The notes beneath the pieces are model-generated. The model was not told where the DNA came from. It made no database searches and was given only the letters and a program-made list of their open reading frames with translations. Shown in pieces: positions 15,680-22,629 of a stretch of 64,000 bases of DNA. This DNA comes from Balneola sp. GTDB lineage: Bacteria; Bacteroidota; Rhodothermia; Balneolales; Balneolaceae. How positions within the stretch are numbered: the stretch's first letter is position 1; each line of letters starts with the position of its first letter. A program made the translations under genes and the position numbers. The stretch spans positions 62,001 to 126,000 of the forward strand of contig NZQV01000026.1 in NCBI GenBank assembly GCA_002696035.1, in the 5' to 3' direction.

Positions 15680-16030
15680 ATGAAAGAGAATGTTATTCAG
15701 GGTAAAAGCTTTGATTTTGCTCTCACAATTATTTCGCTTTACAAAATTCTTCAAAAGGAACGGGAGTACATTATTTCTAGTCAATTGTTAAGATCTGGCA
15801 CTAGCATAGGTGCAAATATTGAGGAAGCCATTGCTGGTCAGTCAAAAAAAGATTTTCTGCACAAGGTTTCTATCTCTTTAAAAGAAGCTCGTGAAACCCG
15901 ATATTGGTTACGTTTGCTGAAAGAGAGCAAACTGACGAATTATGACCTTGATGTGTATCTTAATGAATCGCTAGAGTTGATCAATATTCTGTCAGCAATA
16001 GTCAAAACTACAAGACAACGGCTCGACTAA
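15680..16030 (+). CDS. Four-helix-bundle protein (23S rRNA IVS / Avd-like family)
   Basis: This 116-residue all-helical protein matches the compact 4HB family. It contains the family core RSGTSIGANIEEAIAGQSKK, then KVSISLKEARETRYWLRLLKE. It is the more canonical of the two 4HB proteins here, while the copy at 1579 is longer and diverged. It lies in a cassette with paired arms and the shared 40-nt motif, 34 nt upstream of recN. The function is unknown; binding to structured RNA is suspected because relatives sit in 23S rRNA intervening sequences and an Avd homologue binds nucleic acid. Confidence 0.9.
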   Translation: MKENVIQGKSFDFALTIISLYKILQKEREYIISSQLLRSGTSIGANIEEAIAGQSKKDFLHKVSISLKEARETRYWLRLLKESKLTNYDLDVYLNESLELINILSAIVKTTRQRLD

Positions 16031-16064: not shown

Positions 16065-17771
16065 ATGATCAAATCACTTTACATAAAAGATTTCGCCCTC
16101 ATTGATGAGTTGGAGGTTGAGTTTGAAGAGGGGTTTAATATTTTGACCGGGCAGACCGGGGCGGGGAAGTCTATCATTATCGGGGCGCTGAATATGATCT
16201 TGGGTGAGCGGGCTGATACCGATGTGATCCGACGCGGAGCTGATAAAGCCATTGCTGAAGCCACCATGCGGGTTGGCAAAGAAGAGGAATTGAAAAGCTT
16301 GTTTGAAGAAAATGAAGTTGAATTCAGCGAATTTGTGATCCTTCGGCGTGAAATTAGGGGAACAGGAAGCCGGGCGTTTATCAATGATACTCCGGTGAAT
16401 ATCAGCGTACTTAAAGCAGCCGGCGACCTGCTGGTAGACTTACATGGACAGCACGATCATCAGTTATTATTGAAAGAAGAAAATCACCTTGGGGTGATCG
16501 ACGGTTTTGGGGAAATTGATCCGATCCTGAAAGGCTATAAAGCTGAGTACCGGAAAATGCAGGAATTACAAAAAGAGCTTCGATCGCTGAAAAAGCGTGA
16601 ACATGAGCTTCAGGAAAAAACAGAGCTCTATCGTTTTCAGGTGAACGAACTGGAAGAAGCCCGACTGGGCGAAATTGATCTTGAGCAGCTGGATTCCGAA
16701 ATGAATTTACTGGATAACGCCGAAGTGCTCGACCAAAAAGCAGGTGCCATTTCCGAAATGGCCGATTCTGATGACGGCAACATCATTCAGCTCCTCAACT
16801 TTTTGAAGCTGAATTTAGAAGACCTCTCCCGTATTGAACCGGAATTCAACAATTACCTAGAGGAAATAAATGCAGCACGGGTAAGTGTTAATGAAGCCAT
16901 TGCTTTTGCAGAACGGTATCGAAACAGCATCGAGTTCAACCCAAAGCGACTGGAAGAATTACGTCAGCGACAATCGGAGCTGAACCGACTGCAGAAAAAA
17001 TACCAGCGTAATCTGCCGGAACTCATCAAATATCTGCACGAAATACAACGCGAGCTTTCTATTGCCGATAATTTTGATCTCGAGATCGAAAAGCTGGAAG
17101 AAAAAATTTCCACACAGGCTGAAGTACTGAAAGAACACGCCATTTCTCTTCACCAAACAAGAGAACGAATCGGCGAAAAATTATCTGAACAGATTCAGAA
17201 GGAGCTCGCCAAAGTGGGAATTCCGCATTCCAAGATGGAGGTCCGCGTAGACTGGATGCTTTCCGATAGCGGCTGGATCGAAGTGGAAGGCAAAACCATC
17301 GACTGTACCGAAACCGGCTGCGACGATGTGCGCCTCTATATCTCTACCAACAAAGGCGAGGAGCCAAAGCCACTGGCCAAGATCGCATCAGGTGGAGAGA
17401 TCAGTCGCGTGATGCTGGCGCTGAAATCCATTCTCGCCAAAGAACACAGTCTGCCCGTCATGATCTTTGATGAAATTGATACAGGAATCAGCGGTGAGAT
17501 CTCAGAAAAAGTGGGGGCTTCCATGCGGAAACTATCGGAGCACTGCCAGATCATTGCGATCACGCATCAGCCCCAAATTGCGAGTCAGGCCCACAAGCAT
17601 TACAAAGTGGCCAAAGCCGAAGAAGGCGAGCGAACCGTTTCCCGCATCATTCCGCTTTCCGATGAAGAACACATCCACGAAATTGCCAGCCTGATGAGCG
17701 GTTCCCAGATCACCGATTCCGCCCTGACCAGCGCCCGCGAACTGATCGAGAAGAATACGTTTAAGAATTAG
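16065..17771 (+). CDS. recN: DNA repair protein RecN
   Basis: This SMC-like ATPase of 568 residues acts in double-strand break repair, tethering DNA ends. It has Walker A GQTGAGKS (29-36), a long coiled coil on both sides of a central region (about 155-365), the ABC signature SGGEISRVMLALKS (about 445-458) and Walker B VMIFDEIDTGISG (about 467-479). Length is normal. The last 24 codons plus stop lie in a 74-bp sequence repeated 1.8 kb downstream, so the present 3' end may come from an inserted element. The stop is TAG here and TAA in the downstream copy. Confidence 0.96.
   Translation: MIKSLYIKDFALIDELEVEFEEGFNILTGQTGAGKSIIIGALNMILGERADTDVIRRGADKAIAEATMRVGKEEELKSLFEENEVEFSEFVILRREIRGTGSRAFINDTPVNISVLKAAGDLLVDLHGQHDHQLLLKEENHLGVIDGFGEIDPILKGYKAEYRKMQELQKELRSLKKREHELQEKTELYRFQVNELEEARLGEIDLEQLDSEMNLLDNAEVLDQKAGAISEMADSDDGNIIQLLNFLKLNLEDLSRIEPEFNNYLEEINAARVSVNEAIAFAERYRNSIEFNPKRLEELRQRQSELNRLQKKYQRNLPELIKYLHEIQRELSIADNFDLEIEKLEEKISTQAEVLKEHAISLHQTRERIGEKLSEQIQKELAKVGIPHSKMEVRVDWMLSDSGWIEVEGKTIDCTETGCDDVRLYISTNKGEEPKPLAKIASGGEISRVMLALKSILAKEHSLPVMIFDEIDTGISGEISEKVGASMRKLSEHCQIIAITHQPQIASQAHKHYKVAKAEEGERTVSRIIPLSDEEHIHEIASLMSGSQITDSALTSARELIEKNTFKN
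17697..17770 (+). repeat. 74-bp direct repeat, left copy (inside recN)
   Basis: Runs from AGCGGTTCCCAGATC to AAGAATTA and encodes the last 24 residues of RecN. It is 73/74 identical to 19583-19656. Confidence 0.95.
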
Positions 17772-17788
17772 TTATTAAAGCTTAGTTT

Positions 17789-19156
17789 TCAATCGCAATT
17801 AAAAATACTATTATCAATTCTATCAGTTGACAATGGAATTCTGATTCTATCACTATTCTTAAGTATCTCTACATTAATCATTGATTTGAAACAATCTTCA
17901 CAATCATCAACGATTTTTATTTTACCCCAAATACCCAACTGTAAAATAGCATTAGCTACTTCCTTATAGTCTTCCAGCTTTGGCTCAAAAAACCATCTCG
18001 AGTTTTTAAAAATAAAGTTAACTGGAATATGATTATCGAGACTTTGATTATAAATTTTTAATAAATTTTCAACCAATAGTTCATCTAATTCATCTATGTT
18101 TTTAACATATACTTCTGTTCTTACATTGTTACATTTTTTTATAGAATTTAAATTTATATTTGAAATTCTATTTTTATGATAGAAGTATATTTTATTATTA
18201 TAAAGTTCTATTACTTTTCCTAGCCCAAAAAATCCAAGTTCTCTAAACTCTTTTTCTGAATAGTTATATTCTAATAATAATTGTCCCCGTAAATATGAAT
18301 TTACTTGCAAAATTATTGTATTGTCTTCACTCCCTTTAACCACTGACAGTATTGATTTATAAGTTGGTGAGAACTTGTATTTAAACAAAGATTCAATATT
18401 TGAATTACCATTAAAACTCCTATCAATTTCATTTCCCAAAGATTTTGTTTCCATATTTGGGATACTTATTAATTCAAGAATATCATCTTTATATAAATAA
18501 AAATAGTTTTTATAAGGGTAGTATATTATAGAAATATCATCAATGCTTTTTGTCTTCTTTTGATCATATAATGGATTTAACTCCTCTTTTTCCTCAAACC
18601 TAAATAGGTAATTTTTTTGTGTGTCATCTGCATTAAATACCTTTTCGGAAGTAAAATATTTACCTACAATCTTCTTGCCTTCATCTTCTGAAAACTTTGG
18701 GGTGATTTTAAAGCTTAATAGAGTATCATTGTAATGAAATATATCTGTTGGATAATCCCTTATAATTGTTTCATTTATTATAGTAAAATCTTTCGTATCA
18801 ACTTCTAAAATTTTAGCCCCCCGCTTATCTAATATGTATAGAGTTTGATCGATTAGAGTTATTTCAATATTAGGTGATGAAAACTCTCCGGGACCTCTAC
18901 CTTTACCACCAATTTCTTTAATGATGCTACCATTTGTATCTATTTTTGCTACTTTTTCTTCTCCTTTTATTATCGCAAAGAAGTTTTTGCCATCAAATAG
19001 AACATCATCCAAATTTGGCAAGCTGTCTTGCCCAAATAAATTGGTACTACTAAATGTACCAATCAACATTATTGACACTATAAATTTTATCAAGTTCAAA
19101 AAAAATGGGTGCAAATAACTTCTTAAATATCTACACCCATTGAATAGATTAACCAT
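17789..19156 (-). CDS. Secreted six-bladed beta-propeller protein
   Basis: About 455 residues from the preferred ATG at 19156. An N-terminal hydrophobic signal (LIKFIVSIMLIGTF, cleavage near LFG-Q) precedes the propeller, which has the blade signature GGKGRGPGEFSSPNI of Bacteroidota 6-bladed (BF3884/NHL-like) proteins. A distinct C-terminal segment with a CEDC pair follows. An upstream in-frame start at 19189 would overlap the peptide gene. The chosen ATG lies 2 nt after that gene's stop, indicating coupling. Codons are AT-rich (many Asn, Lys, Ile), unlike recN. Pairing of a propeller with a small Cys peptide recalls the NVEALA-peptide loci of Bacteroides. Function unknown. Confidence 0.7.
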   Translation of the reverse strand: MVNLFNGCRYLRSYLHPFFLNLIKFIVSIMLIGTFSSTNLFGQDSLPNLDDVLFDGKNFFAIIKGEEKVAKIDTNGSIIKEIGGKGRGPGEFSSPNIEITLIDQTLYILDKRGAKILEVDTKDFTIINETIIRDYPTDIFHYNDTLLSFKITPKFSEDEGKKIVGKYFTSEKVFNADDTQKNYLFRFEEKEELNPLYDQKKTKSIDDISIIYYPYKNYFYLYKDDILELISIPNMETKSLGNEIDRSFNGNSNIESLFKYKFSPTYKSILSVVKGSEDNTIILQVNSYLRGQLLLEYNYSEKEFRELGFFGLGKVIELYNNKIYFYHKNRISNINLNSIKKCNNVRTEVYVKNIDELDELLVENLLKIYNQSLDNHIPVNFIFKNSRWFFEPKLEDYKEVANAILQLGIWGKIKIVDDCEDCFKSMINVEILKNSDRIRIPLSTDRIDNSIFNCD

Positions 19157-19158
19157 AT

Positions 19159-19365
19159 TTAACCACACGAATTTGCTGCGTCCACACAATAGTCATTTAA
19201 AAAAGCTTGATAAAGCTCCCATGAATATGTTCCATTTTGATATTGCTCGTCAGCTGTAATTGCGCAATTAAGGTATACATCCATTGGGTCACACATATAT
19301 GCAGAGGAATTTCCAACAAATAGTATTAAAGCGAATAAAATAGTACCGAAAACCTTTTTTTTCAT
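19159..19365 (-). CDS. Small secreted cysteine-containing peptide
   Basis: This 68-residue precursor has a clear signal peptide (MKKKVFGTILFALILFVG..., cleavage near SSA, about residue 22). The short acidic mature part contains four Cys (25, 34, 60 and 67), enough for two disulfides. It is encoded directly before the beta-propeller gene with a 2-nt gap, inside the AT-rich island. I do not recognise the family. By context it resembles the small secreted peptides encoded next to 6-bladed propeller proteins in Bacteroidota (NVEALA type), but the NVEALA motif itself is absent. A bacteriocin-like or ligand role is only a guess. Confidence 0.6.
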   Translation of the reverse strand: MKKKVFGTILFALILFVGNSSAYMCDPMDVYLNCAITADEQYQNGTYSWELYQAFLNDYCVDAANSCG

Positions 19366-19582
19366 TTTCTATGTATTTGTTAATGGTTATTTTTAATCTA
19401 ATTATATATATATGCCAATATTATATATAATAATGAAATTTATATACATAGGTCTCAACTTCATTAGACCCTCATTATTGAATAGAGAAAATATACTTGT
19501 CTACCCATATTCATAGCTATCGGAAAGAAATAAGCTGTTTGAAGCTGAGTTTTAGATCAGGATAAATAATTTGTATGGCAAT

Positions 19583-19656
19583 AGCGGTTCCCAGATCACC
19601 GATTCCGCCCTCACCAGCGCCCGCGAACTGATCGAGAAGAATACGTTTAAGAATTA
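19583..19656 (+). repeat. 74-bp direct repeat, right copy (detached recN tail)
   Basis: Encodes SGSQITDSALTSAREL and the rest of the RecN tail, with a TAA stop but no gene in front of it. It is followed directly by the palindrome at 19669-19720, presumably the original downstream flank of recN. Confidence 0.95.
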
Positions 19657-19668
19657 ATCATTTTTTGA

Positions 19669-19720
19669 TGTGAATACACCGTAGAGACGCAAGATTTTGC
19701 GTCTCTACGGTGTATTCACA
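19669..19720. repeat. 24-bp perfect palindrome (stem-loop, possible bidirectional terminator)
   Basis: Two 24-nt arms (19669-19692 and 19697-19720) pair perfectly around the loop GATT. The core is GTAGAGACGC/GCGTCTCTAC. It lies between the detached recN tail and the stop of the convergent FAD dehydrogenase gene. Core sequences of this kind are widespread as small intergenic repeats in other bacteria, so it may be a MITE-like unit used as a terminator. Confidence 0.8.
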
Positions 19721-19728
19721 AAAATAGT

Positions 19729-22629
19729 TTACAAAATGGCTCGGGCAATCAAAGAAGCAGGGTGTTCAGCCTTCCGATCTACCCCATCTTTGATCTGATG
19801 TCGGCATGAGAACCCGGGGGCACAAACTTCATCTTCTTGATTATTACGTAACGCCGGGAACAAGACCAACTCCCCAATTTCCTGCGAGACGTCGTAGTGG
19901 TCTTTCTCATAGCCGAAACTACCCGCCATTCCACAGCAGCCGGTATCAAGGACTTCCACCTCATATCCCGCAGATTTAAGAGCTTCTACCGTTGGTTCGT
20001 TTCCAACCAAGGCTTTGGCGTGGCAATGTCCGTGCAGCATCACTTTCTGGGTTGAACCGGATTCCGGAATTCGATCTTTGTTGTTTGCTACAAATTCTTC
20101 AAATGTAAAAGACTGCTGAGCTAATTTATTGGCGATTGGCAACTCTTCAGAGTCGCACAGTTCCATGAACTCATCCCGTAAAGTCAAGATCTCGGAAGGT
20201 TCCAATCCTACGACCGGAATGCCAGCTTCTATATATGCTTCAAATTCCTGCAACACCTTTTTGGTGATTGATTTTGCCTCTTTTAAAAATCCTTTAGAAA
20301 GTTGCGGGCGACCGGTTTCCATTGCTTTTGGGACGATTACCTCAAAGCCCATTTTCTCGAGCACATTCACCGCATCCATCCCAATTTCAGGATCATTGTA
20401 GTTGGTGAACAAATCTACAAAGAGTACCACTTTATCCTCTGAGCAGACCATACCATTTCGCTGATGTTTTTTGAATAAGGAACGAAAGGTTTTGGGAGCA
20501 AACTTAGGCAGATCACGCCGCGCATCAATGCCGAACACATTCTCAAACACCCATTTTCCAGGTTTTGCAGCAACTACTTTATTAGCTAAAGTTGGAGTAA
20601 GAGAAGCCAGTGGAAACAACTTTCCGGCATCCGCAAAAAAGCGTTCTGAAAGTTTGGAGCCATTTTGCTCGTGCCAGCCGTTCAGAAATTCGGCTTTCAT
20701 TTTGCCCATATCCACATTGGCCGGACATTCACTTTTACAGGCCTTACAGCTCAGGCACAGGTCCAGCGCTTCTTTCAGTTCTTTGGAAGCATATCCATGA
20801 GGATCTTCCCCTGCAAAAACCTGACGGAATACATTCGCACGACCACGGGTAGAATCTTTTTCCTCTTTGGTGGCCATATACGAAGGACACATCGTTCCGC
20901 CACTTTCGGCCAGCTTGCGACAAACGCCAGCACCATTGCATAATTCCATGGCACTGCCGAATTCTCCTTCTTTTCGCCACGCAAAAACAGTTTCCGGATC
21001 CGGTCGCTTGTAATCGGGAGAAAATCGCAGATCTTCGTCAATGGGTTTTGGGTTGACGATCTTGCCGGGATTGAAAATGTATTCCGGATCCCAGATCTCC
21101 TTCACTTGCTGTAAAACAGGGAGCATTTCCTCCCCCAGGATCTTTTTGATGTAGGGAGCCCGCACGCGACCATCACCGTGCTCGCCGGAAAGTGAACCGT
21201 TGTATTTGGTCACCAGATCAGCGATCTCATCGGCCATCACTTTCATCTTGTTCAAACCGGCTTCAGAAAAAATATCGATCTGTGGACGCAAGTGAAGTTC
21301 TCCCACCGAAGCATGCGCATAAAACACACAATGTGTATCGTGTTTGGCGAGGATCTGCTCAAATTCCTTTACGTATTCCGGCAGGTCCTGAACGCGAACA
21401 GCGGTGTCTTCACAGAAAGAAGGCGAGCGGCCGTCCTCGCCAAGTCCCATCAACAGGCCCAATCCCGCTTTACGCAGATCCCAAACGCGCTTCATTTTGT
21501 CGGCTTCCGGGATGATAGGATAGGCATACCCCAGCTCTTTCTTCTTCAACACCTCAGCCAGCTTTTCGGCTTTTTGCTGAAGTGCATCGGGTTCATTTCC
21601 TTCAAATTGTGTGATCAGAATGTAACGTGGCTCGCCTTCCAGAAAGAACCGGTTTTTGCTTTGCTCGATATTGCCTTTGGTGGCATCCATTATGATATGG
21701 TCGACCAGTTCAACTGCAGCAGGCTCATAATTCACGATCTCAACGGCCGCTTTCATGGCTTCTTCCAGTGACTCAAATTGCGGTACGATCACCAGCTTAT
21801 GTTTATCCAGCGAACTCAGGTCAAGTTTGGCAGAAGCCGTCATGGCCAGGGTACCTTCACTTCCGCACAGCAATTCACAGAGATTGAACTTACGTCCGTT
21901 TGGCGTGAAGGGCTGCATCTCCAGCATCTTATCCAATGCGTAACCTGTATTCCGGCGAATGATATCTTTATGGGGATAACTCTTCTCGATCAGCTCCCGG
22001 TTTCGCTCCAGCAATTTCAGCATGGAGCGGTAGATGTGTCCTTCGAGGTTATCGAGCTTTTTCTTGGCTTCCAGTTCATTGGAAGTCAATGGTTTGAACA
22101 CCGCTTTTGAACCATCGCTCAAAATAACTTCCACTTCCAGCGTGTGTTCGCGCGTGGTTTGGTATTTGATGGAAAAGGAGCCGGACGAATTATTCCCGAT
22201 CATCCCACCCACCATACAGCGATTGGTAGTTGCAGTATCAGGACCGAATAAAAGCTGAGATTTGGCTGCTTCCCGGTTCAGTGTATCACGGATCACCCCA
22301 GGCTGAACATGGGCCGTTTTGGAATTTGCATCGATCTCCAGAATTCGATTCATAAAACGGGAAACATCCATGATGACACCACCACCGGTCGTTTGTCCGG
22401 CCAGACTGGTACCCGCACTGCGAGCCGTGACAGTAAAGCCTTCGAGGTTGGCCTGCTTTACCAGCGTCTGAATGTCATCGATAGATTTTGGAAAGGAAAC
22501 GCCTTCCGGGACTTCCTCATACAAAGAAGCATCCTGGGCGTATAATTTACGTGTGAGTGAGTCGCGTTGAATCAAAATATCTCCTGCTGAGTGAGGCAAT
22601 AGTTTGAGGCTAATTCGGGATAATTTCAA
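19729..22629 (-). CDS. FAD-linked oxidase with Fe-S domain (YdiJ / D-2-hydroxyacid dehydrogenase type)
   Basis: This 966-residue fusion has an N-terminal FAD-binding PCMH/4 domain (about 15-250, with ARSAGTSLAGQTTGGGVIMD) and an FAD-oxidase C domain (about 290-540, ending GEHGDGRVRAPY and FNPGKI). Next comes a 4Fe-4S region with CNGAGVCRK and CLSCKACKSECP (about 585-650), and a C-terminal CCG domain with GHCHAKAL and DTGCCGMAGSFGY (near 895-910). The order matches E. coli YdiJ, a membrane-linked dehydrogenase of D-2-hydroxyglutarate and related acids, and resembles D-lactate dehydrogenases of the GlcDF fusion type. The true substrate is open. It is monocistronic and convergent with recN. Confidence 0.9.
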   Translation of the reverse strand: MKLSRISLKLLPHSAGDILIQRDSLTRKLYAQDASLYEEVPEGVSFPKSIDDIQTLVKQANLEGFTVTARSAGTSLAGQTTGGGVIMDVSRFMNRILEIDANSKTAHVQPGVIRDTLNREAAKSQLLFGPDTATTNRCMVGGMIGNNSSGSFSIKYQTTREHTLEVEVILSDGSKAVFKPLTSNELEAKKKLDNLEGHIYRSMLKLLERNRELIEKSYPHKDIIRRNTGYALDKMLEMQPFTPNGRKFNLCELLCGSEGTLAMTASAKLDLSSLDKHKLVIVPQFESLEEAMKAAVEIVNYEPAAVELVDHIIMDATKGNIEQSKNRFFLEGEPRYILITQFEGNEPDALQQKAEKLAEVLKKKELGYAYPIIPEADKMKRVWDLRKAGLGLLMGLGEDGRSPSFCEDTAVRVQDLPEYVKEFEQILAKHDTHCVFYAHASVGELHLRPQIDIFSEAGLNKMKVMADEIADLVTKYNGSLSGEHGDGRVRAPYIKKILGEEMLPVLQQVKEIWDPEYIFNPGKIVNPKPIDEDLRFSPDYKRPDPETVFAWRKEGEFGSAMELCNGAGVCRKLAESGGTMCPSYMATKEEKDSTRGRANVFRQVFAGEDPHGYASKELKEALDLCLSCKACKSECPANVDMGKMKAEFLNGWHEQNGSKLSERFFADAGKLFPLASLTPTLANKVVAAKPGKWVFENVFGIDARRDLPKFAPKTFRSLFKKHQRNGMVCSEDKVVLFVDLFTNYNDPEIGMDAVNVLEKMGFEVIVPKAMETGRPQLSKGFLKEAKSITKKVLQEFEAYIEAGIPVVGLEPSEILTLRDEFMELCDSEELPIANKLAQQSFTFEEFVANNKDRIPESGSTQKVMLHGHCHAKALVGNEPTVEALKSAGYEVEVLDTGCCGMAGSFGYEKDHYDVSQEIGELVLFPALRNNQEDEVCAPGFSCRHQIKDGVDRKAEHPASLIARAIL

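Follow-up and report, generated by a model that had tools for sequence, protein, structure and literature searches.

The stretch of DNA analysed here, referred to as the window, spans 64,000 nt of Balneola sp. (assembly GCA_002696035.1, contig NZQV01000026.1, positions 62,001-126,000 of the forward strand) and contains an AT-rich island that stands between an intact recN gene and a second, separate copy of the recN 3′ end. The genome under study (G000, 3.97 Mb) was compared with 56 other genomes (57 in total); nine relatives belong to the same genus (G001-G009), and each species is represented by one genome. The features of the locus, in window coordinates, are as follows.

16065-17771, plus strand: recN, intact, 568 aa (open reading frame [ORF] with Pfam SMC_N and AAA matches); its 3′ end is the attached, or left, copy
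17697-17770, plus strand: left copy of the 74-nt repeat, formed by the recN 3′ end (repeat search)
17771-19582, no strand: AT-rich island, 27.5% GC, in which no recombinase was found
17789-19189, minus strand: larger cargo ORF, 466 aa from TTG or 455 aa from ATG; secreted, judging by eye from its N-terminus, and remotely like DUF5128 and 6-bladed propellers
19159-19365, minus strand: ORF for a 68-aa peptide with a signal-like N-terminus and four Cys
19366-19582, minus strand: non-coding AT-rich DNA (24.9% GC) upstream of the peptide gene, reaching to the junction with the orphan tail
19583-19656, plus strand: right copy of the repeat, the orphan (displaced) recN 3′ end, 73/74 identical to the left copy
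19669-19720, no strand: hairpin with perfect 24-nt arms, likely the ancestral recN/oxidase terminator; its core is common to G006, diverged in G002 and G009 and absent in G008
19729-22629, minus strand: convergent gene, the conserved neighbour of recN (ORF and comparison of relatives), which we take to be of the FAD-linked oxidase type

According to the preliminary description of this DNA, the last 74 nt of recN recur in direct orientation 1.8 kb downstream with one synonymous mismatch, and our repeat search bore this out. The search paired positions 17697-17776 with 19583-19662 at 96% over 80 nt, within which the sustained match is 74 nt long and identical at 73 positions. The mismatch lies in a Leu codon (CTG on the left, CTC on the right), the attached and orphan tails encode the same residues, and the stop codon differs directly after the match (TAG on the left, TAA on the right). 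Direct repeats of at least 35 nt form three families in total in the window, with copies 75% and 83% alike in the two remaining families. Given that an 86-nt query matches exactly two places in the genome, the 74-nt repeat is far beyond chance. Among the 57 genomes, one was found to have a detached recN tail next to an intact recN; further recN matches in G009 and G022 were read as a contig-end overlap and as a second recN in pieces.

The insert stands behind a whole recN, and the resident tail and terminator are orphaned on its far side. Since the right copy adjoins the ancestral terminator, whose hairpin core stands behind the single recN of G006, it is the native recN tail that was pushed aside by the insert. 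Rfam analysis of positions 17500-20000 returned two sub-threshold microRNA matches to the hairpin, which we took as chance. The recN genes of the nine same-genus genomes are 86-90% identical to that of G000; eight of them were aligned, G004 having been dropped with its start motif unmatched. The CTC of the orphan is found in none of these eight relatives and is the derived base; CTG occurs in G006, G002 and G009. The two copies are about equally close to the relatives (0.88 and 0.86 to G006), and the recN sequences by themselves therefore do not reveal whether the attached tail was already resident or arrived with the cargo. No clear mosaic breakpoint was seen by eye in recN against the same eight relatives. 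Island and resident DNA have different bases just to the left of AGCGG. On the other side of recN, directly before it at 15680-16030, lies a gene of the 23S rRNA-intervening-sequence protein family (PF05635), a homologue of which (60-81%) is present in nine of the ten related recN loci compared.

The island is the lowest-GC 1.8 kb of the window (27.5% against 44.9% GC for the window as a whole), in agreement with its earlier description as AT-rich. Its ORFs of at least 50 aa are the two cargo ORFs, both on the minus strand and convergent with recN, and one of 65 aa. Of the cargo originally proposed, a small secreted Cys peptide and a beta-propeller protein, the peptide stood, its four Cys and the signal-like N-termini of both proteins having been judged by eye; no family exceeded the cut-off for it, and genome-contig scans gave no relatives of either cargo protein. 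The propeller label fared less well. The larger protein has no Pfam match of its own at an E-value of 1 or less, and its single-sequence fold was too poor for use (mean predicted local distance difference test score, 38.5). It gave eight weak matches in its own and related genomes (E 1.7e-9 to 2.9e-3), and three of the four that were scanned exceed the Pfam cut-off for DUF5128, “6-bladed beta-propeller.” These matches suggest a propeller weakly, and we regard the label as a fair guess rather than a result. Queried from residue 22 of its ORF, the larger protein had no relative in 50,697 phage records or in 72,556 plasmid records, and none turned up in IMG/VR within the sensitivity that a single-protein scan allows. 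The DNA of the island gave short, weak matches alone in the 56 other genomes (six genomes, E 0.003-0.006).

Comparison with the relatives shows that the island is an insertion. recN is kept in all nine same-genus genomes, and the oxidase-type gene is its convergent neighbour in eight; in G009 this relation was seen on a contig that starts within the recN tail, and in G003 the oxidase gene was not found in the 16 kb that was looked at. Empty sites and other cargo, both of which the preliminary description had proposed seeking, occur at this junction. The gap between recN and the oxidase gene is about 54 nt in G006 and 0 nt in G008. Six other same-genus genomes carry different genes there: a gene for a protein of ~220 aa, presumably cytochrome-like with a sorting tail, in G001, G004, G005 and G007 (and in at least five members of the family), and a gene for a 294-aa protein in G002 and G009. 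Given the two empty sites and these differing genes, the content of the junction turns over. Synteny between G000 and G006 was too broken for counting insertions.

The layout is mirrored at the oxidase end of the junction. Beside recN, G002 and G009 retain a relic of the old terminator, followed by a stretch that matches the oxidase 3′ end of G000, G006 or G008 at 22-24 of 40 positions (shuffle P of 0.0001 or less in a fixed register). The oxidase gene of these two genomes now ends differently and adjoins the gene for the 294-aa protein. The stretch beside recN is likely a remnant of the old oxidase 3′ end. Near the oxidase gene of another genome, G026, there is an array of long near-identical repeats (locus L043, 2171-3944).

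To learn whether recN is unusual as a site, we scanned 2.524 Mb (1.464 Mb of G000 and 1.06 Mb from five relatives; 1,944 ORFs of at least 100 aa) for further orphan gene tails, seeking a copy of each gene 3′ end downstream with a score of at least 20 and running three control directions alongside. The scan found 13 such copies, three of them clear cases and all in G000: recN (score 72), a glycosylase-like gene (57) and ribF (89), with the cargo convergent to the core gene each time. The control directions gave five, four and three orphans, none comparable as a clear gene end; the two best (scores 61 and 53) are the repeated element and the tRNA-adjacent ORF that are also among the dropped candidates below, and the next (34 and 31) were looked at less closely. 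The two further loci comprise the following features.

G000:C14:17509-18456 (locus L084, 16197-18456): gene resembling a DNA glycosylase (HhH-GPD match, below the cut-off)
G000:C14:16197-16286: orphan glycosylase tail, 1.2 kb downstream
G000:C14:772934-773863 (locus L183, 772310-773863): ribF, with FAD synthetase and flavokinase domains

The glycosylase case bears the most mechanistic weight. Its cargo, in DNA of 36% GC, is a single convergent gene encoding a lipoprotein-like protein of 359 aa and is followed by the orphan tail; relatives of this cargo occur in the same neighbourhood in G004 (54%) and G001 (32%). Behind the orphan are two propeller genes, the second of which is 46-66% and the first 33-38% identical to the gene directly after the glycosylase in G002, G004, G006 and G009. 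With the junction codon left out, 14 of 78 nt are mismatched between the attached and orphan tails, with 10 of the mismatches at third positions, and two codons are nonsynonymous against 9.9 expected, a count as low as this being reached in none of 5,000 simulations. With the junction codon included, the mismatches number 15 of 81 and the nonsynonymous codons three (0 of 20,000 simulations as low). Because the differences are mostly synonymous, the copies seem to have diverged as working genes, i.e., in different lineages. Both tails were compared over 72 nt with nine of 11 loci, G003 and G006 having been left out because the placing motif was not found in them. Six of the nine relatives are nearer to the orphan than to the attached tail, two are equally near to both and one is slightly further from the orphan; for G009 the identities are 0.92 (orphan) and 0.76 (attached). 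The attached tail probably comes from another lineage and arrived with the foreign cargo, the resident tail having been displaced.

At ribF, the order on the 3′ side is a convergent 79-aa gene, an orphan tail of ~258 nt with an in-frame stop, a 160-aa ORF and rpsO, and a second ribF tail is present in one of ten genomes of the genus (G000). The two copies have 84% nucleotide identity and 18 nonsynonymous codons against 29.4 expected. At both additional loci, the anatomy was observed directly, whereas the mechanism is one that we infer.

Other candidates from the scan were weaker. Five were dropped: G002:C37:475808, in which both ends of a partly masked ORF recur, indicating a repeated element (Rfam finds no rRNA there); G003:C6:109337, tandem paralogues by eye; G000:C14:686339, whose shared stretch abuts a tRNA-Leu; G000:C11:297, a recombinase paralogue; and G000:C3:453041, interpreted as a dispersed repeat. 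Two candidates resemble orphan tails in decay and are weaker than the clear cases: G000:C14:677653, 3.9 kb downstream of an intact ORF (G000:C14 673784-679005), and G008:C12:161548, 0.4 kb downstream of another (G008:C12 161117-162030). G000:C14:350493, G006:C5:123826 and G000:C25:90582 are weak candidates. At the tRNA-Leu (G000:C14 686202-687052, locus L179), the short stretch adjoining it is found again at two places within 0.8 kb of AT-rich DNA, which could represent an array of attachment sites or tRNA remnants.

For the recN locus, we lean towards a capture in which homology-anchored recombination placed a short fragment of foreign chromosomal DNA behind recN, for which no integrase would be needed. 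In our analysis, the event is best read as akin to homology-facilitated illegitimate recombination (HFIR) or to insertion with long target duplication. The incoming DNA would have carried a recN 3′ end and then a convergent operon for secreted proteins. Its recN part would have paired with the resident recN and been joined there, and its other end, just upstream of the promoter region of the operon, would have been joined to resident DNA 74 nt before the recN stop. This second joining may have been an end-joining without homology, or the fragment may have circularised with a short stretch of recN left. The resulting 74-nt repeat would permit precise loss through ordinary recombination. The preliminary description had offered, as one of its explanations, a cassette swapped by homologous recombination at recN, which comes close to the capture proposed here. 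G000 encodes ComEC and DprA; since ComEC is also found in 10 of 14 control genomes, these genes count as permissive evidence only. Among the papers searched, none was found that joins Balneolaceae with natural transformation, and none among the matches listed treats recN as an integration site.

Several observations weigh against this capture. The recN copies are identical at 73 of 74 positions, nothing in the repeat proves a foreign donor, and a purely local duplication around captured DNA would be indistinguishable at recN and fits equally well at ribF. The ribF copies are almost identical over ~125 nt and diverged mainly in the last ~80 nt, and the orphan tail is 84% identical to the attached tail over 81 aa against 68-79% to nine relatives, a pattern more in keeping with a donor that was local or very close than with a distant one. 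Possible explanations are that the donor was close, that gene conversion followed later or that resident DNA was duplicated around the crossover, and ribF alone does not show a distant donor. No genome in which recN is followed by this cargo was found among the genomes compared, a sample with one genome per species. The 1.06 Mb of the five relatives contained no clear orphan tail, and three cases in one genome are a small sample. As to the mirror case, sliding 40 nt freely over 60,000 positions gave at least 22 matches at 0.007-0.012% of them, with a best of 23; because equally good matches are found in this way, the oxidase remnant rests on the register fixed by the conserved flank. Finally, HFIR as described in PMC3240628 mostly deletes resident DNA rather than duplicating it.

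Of the other routes, a single crossover of Campbell type survives best. Here, a circularised donor fragment with a shortened recN tail would have entered at recN; this is a sub-route of the homology-anchored capture, with which its chances overlap, and taken by itself it is possible if rather unlikely. PMC3240628 reports a conjugation study in E. coli in which duplications of this kind accounted for 56 of the 60 recombinants in one class, the 14 that were sequenced measuring 109-950 bp, and rhs tip displacement is explained likewise in PMC2935791. Neither the circle nor the donor was observed, and with one genome per species this route is indistinguishable from HFIR.

More doubtful is a long target duplication without any donor recN, in which DNA of any origin would have been copied or ligated into a break in recN by template switching or by fill-in of a staggered break of 74 nt. 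Insertions of this type have been reported from Helicobacter pylori (work cited in PMC1643837). The near-identity of the recN copies with the derived base in the orphan, the near-identical block at ribF, the closeness of the orphan ribF tail to the attached one and the single, uninterrupted target in G006 and G008 all speak for it. The glycosylase copies speak against it, given that their synonymous bias, typical of two working genes, and the greater closeness of the orphan to most relatives are not produced by local duplication. In addition, Ku was not found in G000, which makes classical end joining unlikely.

Integrase-type genomic islands restore the gene at whose 3′ end they sit, have that end directly repeated at both borders and carry AT-rich cargo, and direct repeats of gene 3′ ends are routinely taken as integrase attachment sites. 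The preliminary description had accordingly considered a site-specific integrative element, or a satellite mobilised in trans. On this reading, a tyrosine recombinase whose gene lies elsewhere would have inserted a small circle at the recN 3′ site, with the tail of the element restoring the gene. Insertion at a gene 3′ end, the restored gene and the repeat at both borders are indeed observed, and a search for integrases elsewhere in the genome gave 17 tyrosine-recombinase matches. However, none of these lies in the window, the nearest on the same contig being ~368 kb off, and no recombinase was found among the ORFs of the island that were scanned with Pfam (the two cargo ORFs). No integrase-type element was seen at the same site in the relatives, the tail beside an intact recN being confined to one genome, and no similar recN tail was found in the 56 other genomes. 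Neither phage and plasmid records nor IMG/VR yielded the larger cargo protein, and a scan of the same type did not find the recN tail in IMG/VR. The 74-nt repeat holds no exact inverted repeat of 7 nt within 40 nt, the repeats at recN, the glycosylase gene and ribF have no obvious common core by eye, and the 86-nt query, to whose sensitivity a short attachment core would be inaccessible, found no third copy in the 3.97-Mb genome. Above all, the layout recurs at two unrelated core genes and is mirrored at the oxidase end, which is not expected of a recN-specific integrase. With no recombinase, no element family and a layout that is not gene-specific, we disfavour the integrase reading and consider it improbable. 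An assembly artefact is unlikely because both copies lie inside a 518-kb contig with unique flanks and differing sequence, and with two similar cases elsewhere we give an assembly or contamination origin hardly any credence.

The homology-anchored capture favoured here resembles several known processes. In H. pylori, insertions with long target duplication bring in genes, often for restriction-modification, and are flanked by long direct copies of resident sequence that the empty allele has only once (Nobusato et al., 2000, as cited in PMC1643837 and PMC4978471). In G000, by contrast, secreted propeller-like or small proteins are encoded at core-gene 3′ ends, and the glycosylase copies look like different alleles rather than the product of local duplication. 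HFIR is known in S. pneumoniae, A. baylyi and P. stutzeri (PMC3240628 and PMC2884548); it combines homology at one end with an illegitimate junction at the other, as proposed here for a genome with ComEC and DprA, and the glycosylase tail would be compatible with one-sided donor homology. HFIR is described there as deleting about as much as it inserts, whereas the recN locus has a displaced tail, no deletion and no donor that we could find. In rhs genes and the immunity arrays of type VI secretion system (T6SS) loci, a conserved gene serves as the attachment point for incoming DNA, and its former 3′ part ends up further downstream as an orphan (PMC2935791 and PMC5361080). What is exchanged in those systems is the variable tip or effector itself; at the recN locus it is a housekeeping gene's tail, and a gene of its own forms the cargo. 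The alternative, non-homologous C-terminal tips of the Rhs type are likewise not seen at recN, where both tails encode the same residues. Overall, the island would be a variant of known homology-anchored or long-duplication insertions and, as far as can be seen, not an integrase element.

We consider these findings to be of moderate interest, because the layout recurs and the tails allow a test of origin. A direct repeat of a gene 3′ end most likely arose here from plain recombination, and a codon-by-codon comparison of the copies can help to distinguish such cases. Orphan tails are fossils that mark both the anchor gene and the native copy, and they make homology-anchored capture countable in genomes; as a rough rate, three clear cases in 1.46 Mb of G000 suggest that capture is not rare there. 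More tentatively, and with less confidence than we place in the capture at recN, core-gene 3′ ends may be docking points for single-gene cassettes in this lineage, with the gene tail serving as a homology handle. If so, convergent cassettes would travel between species and insert and leave by ordinary recombination, and gene content would turn over without a dedicated mobility enzyme.

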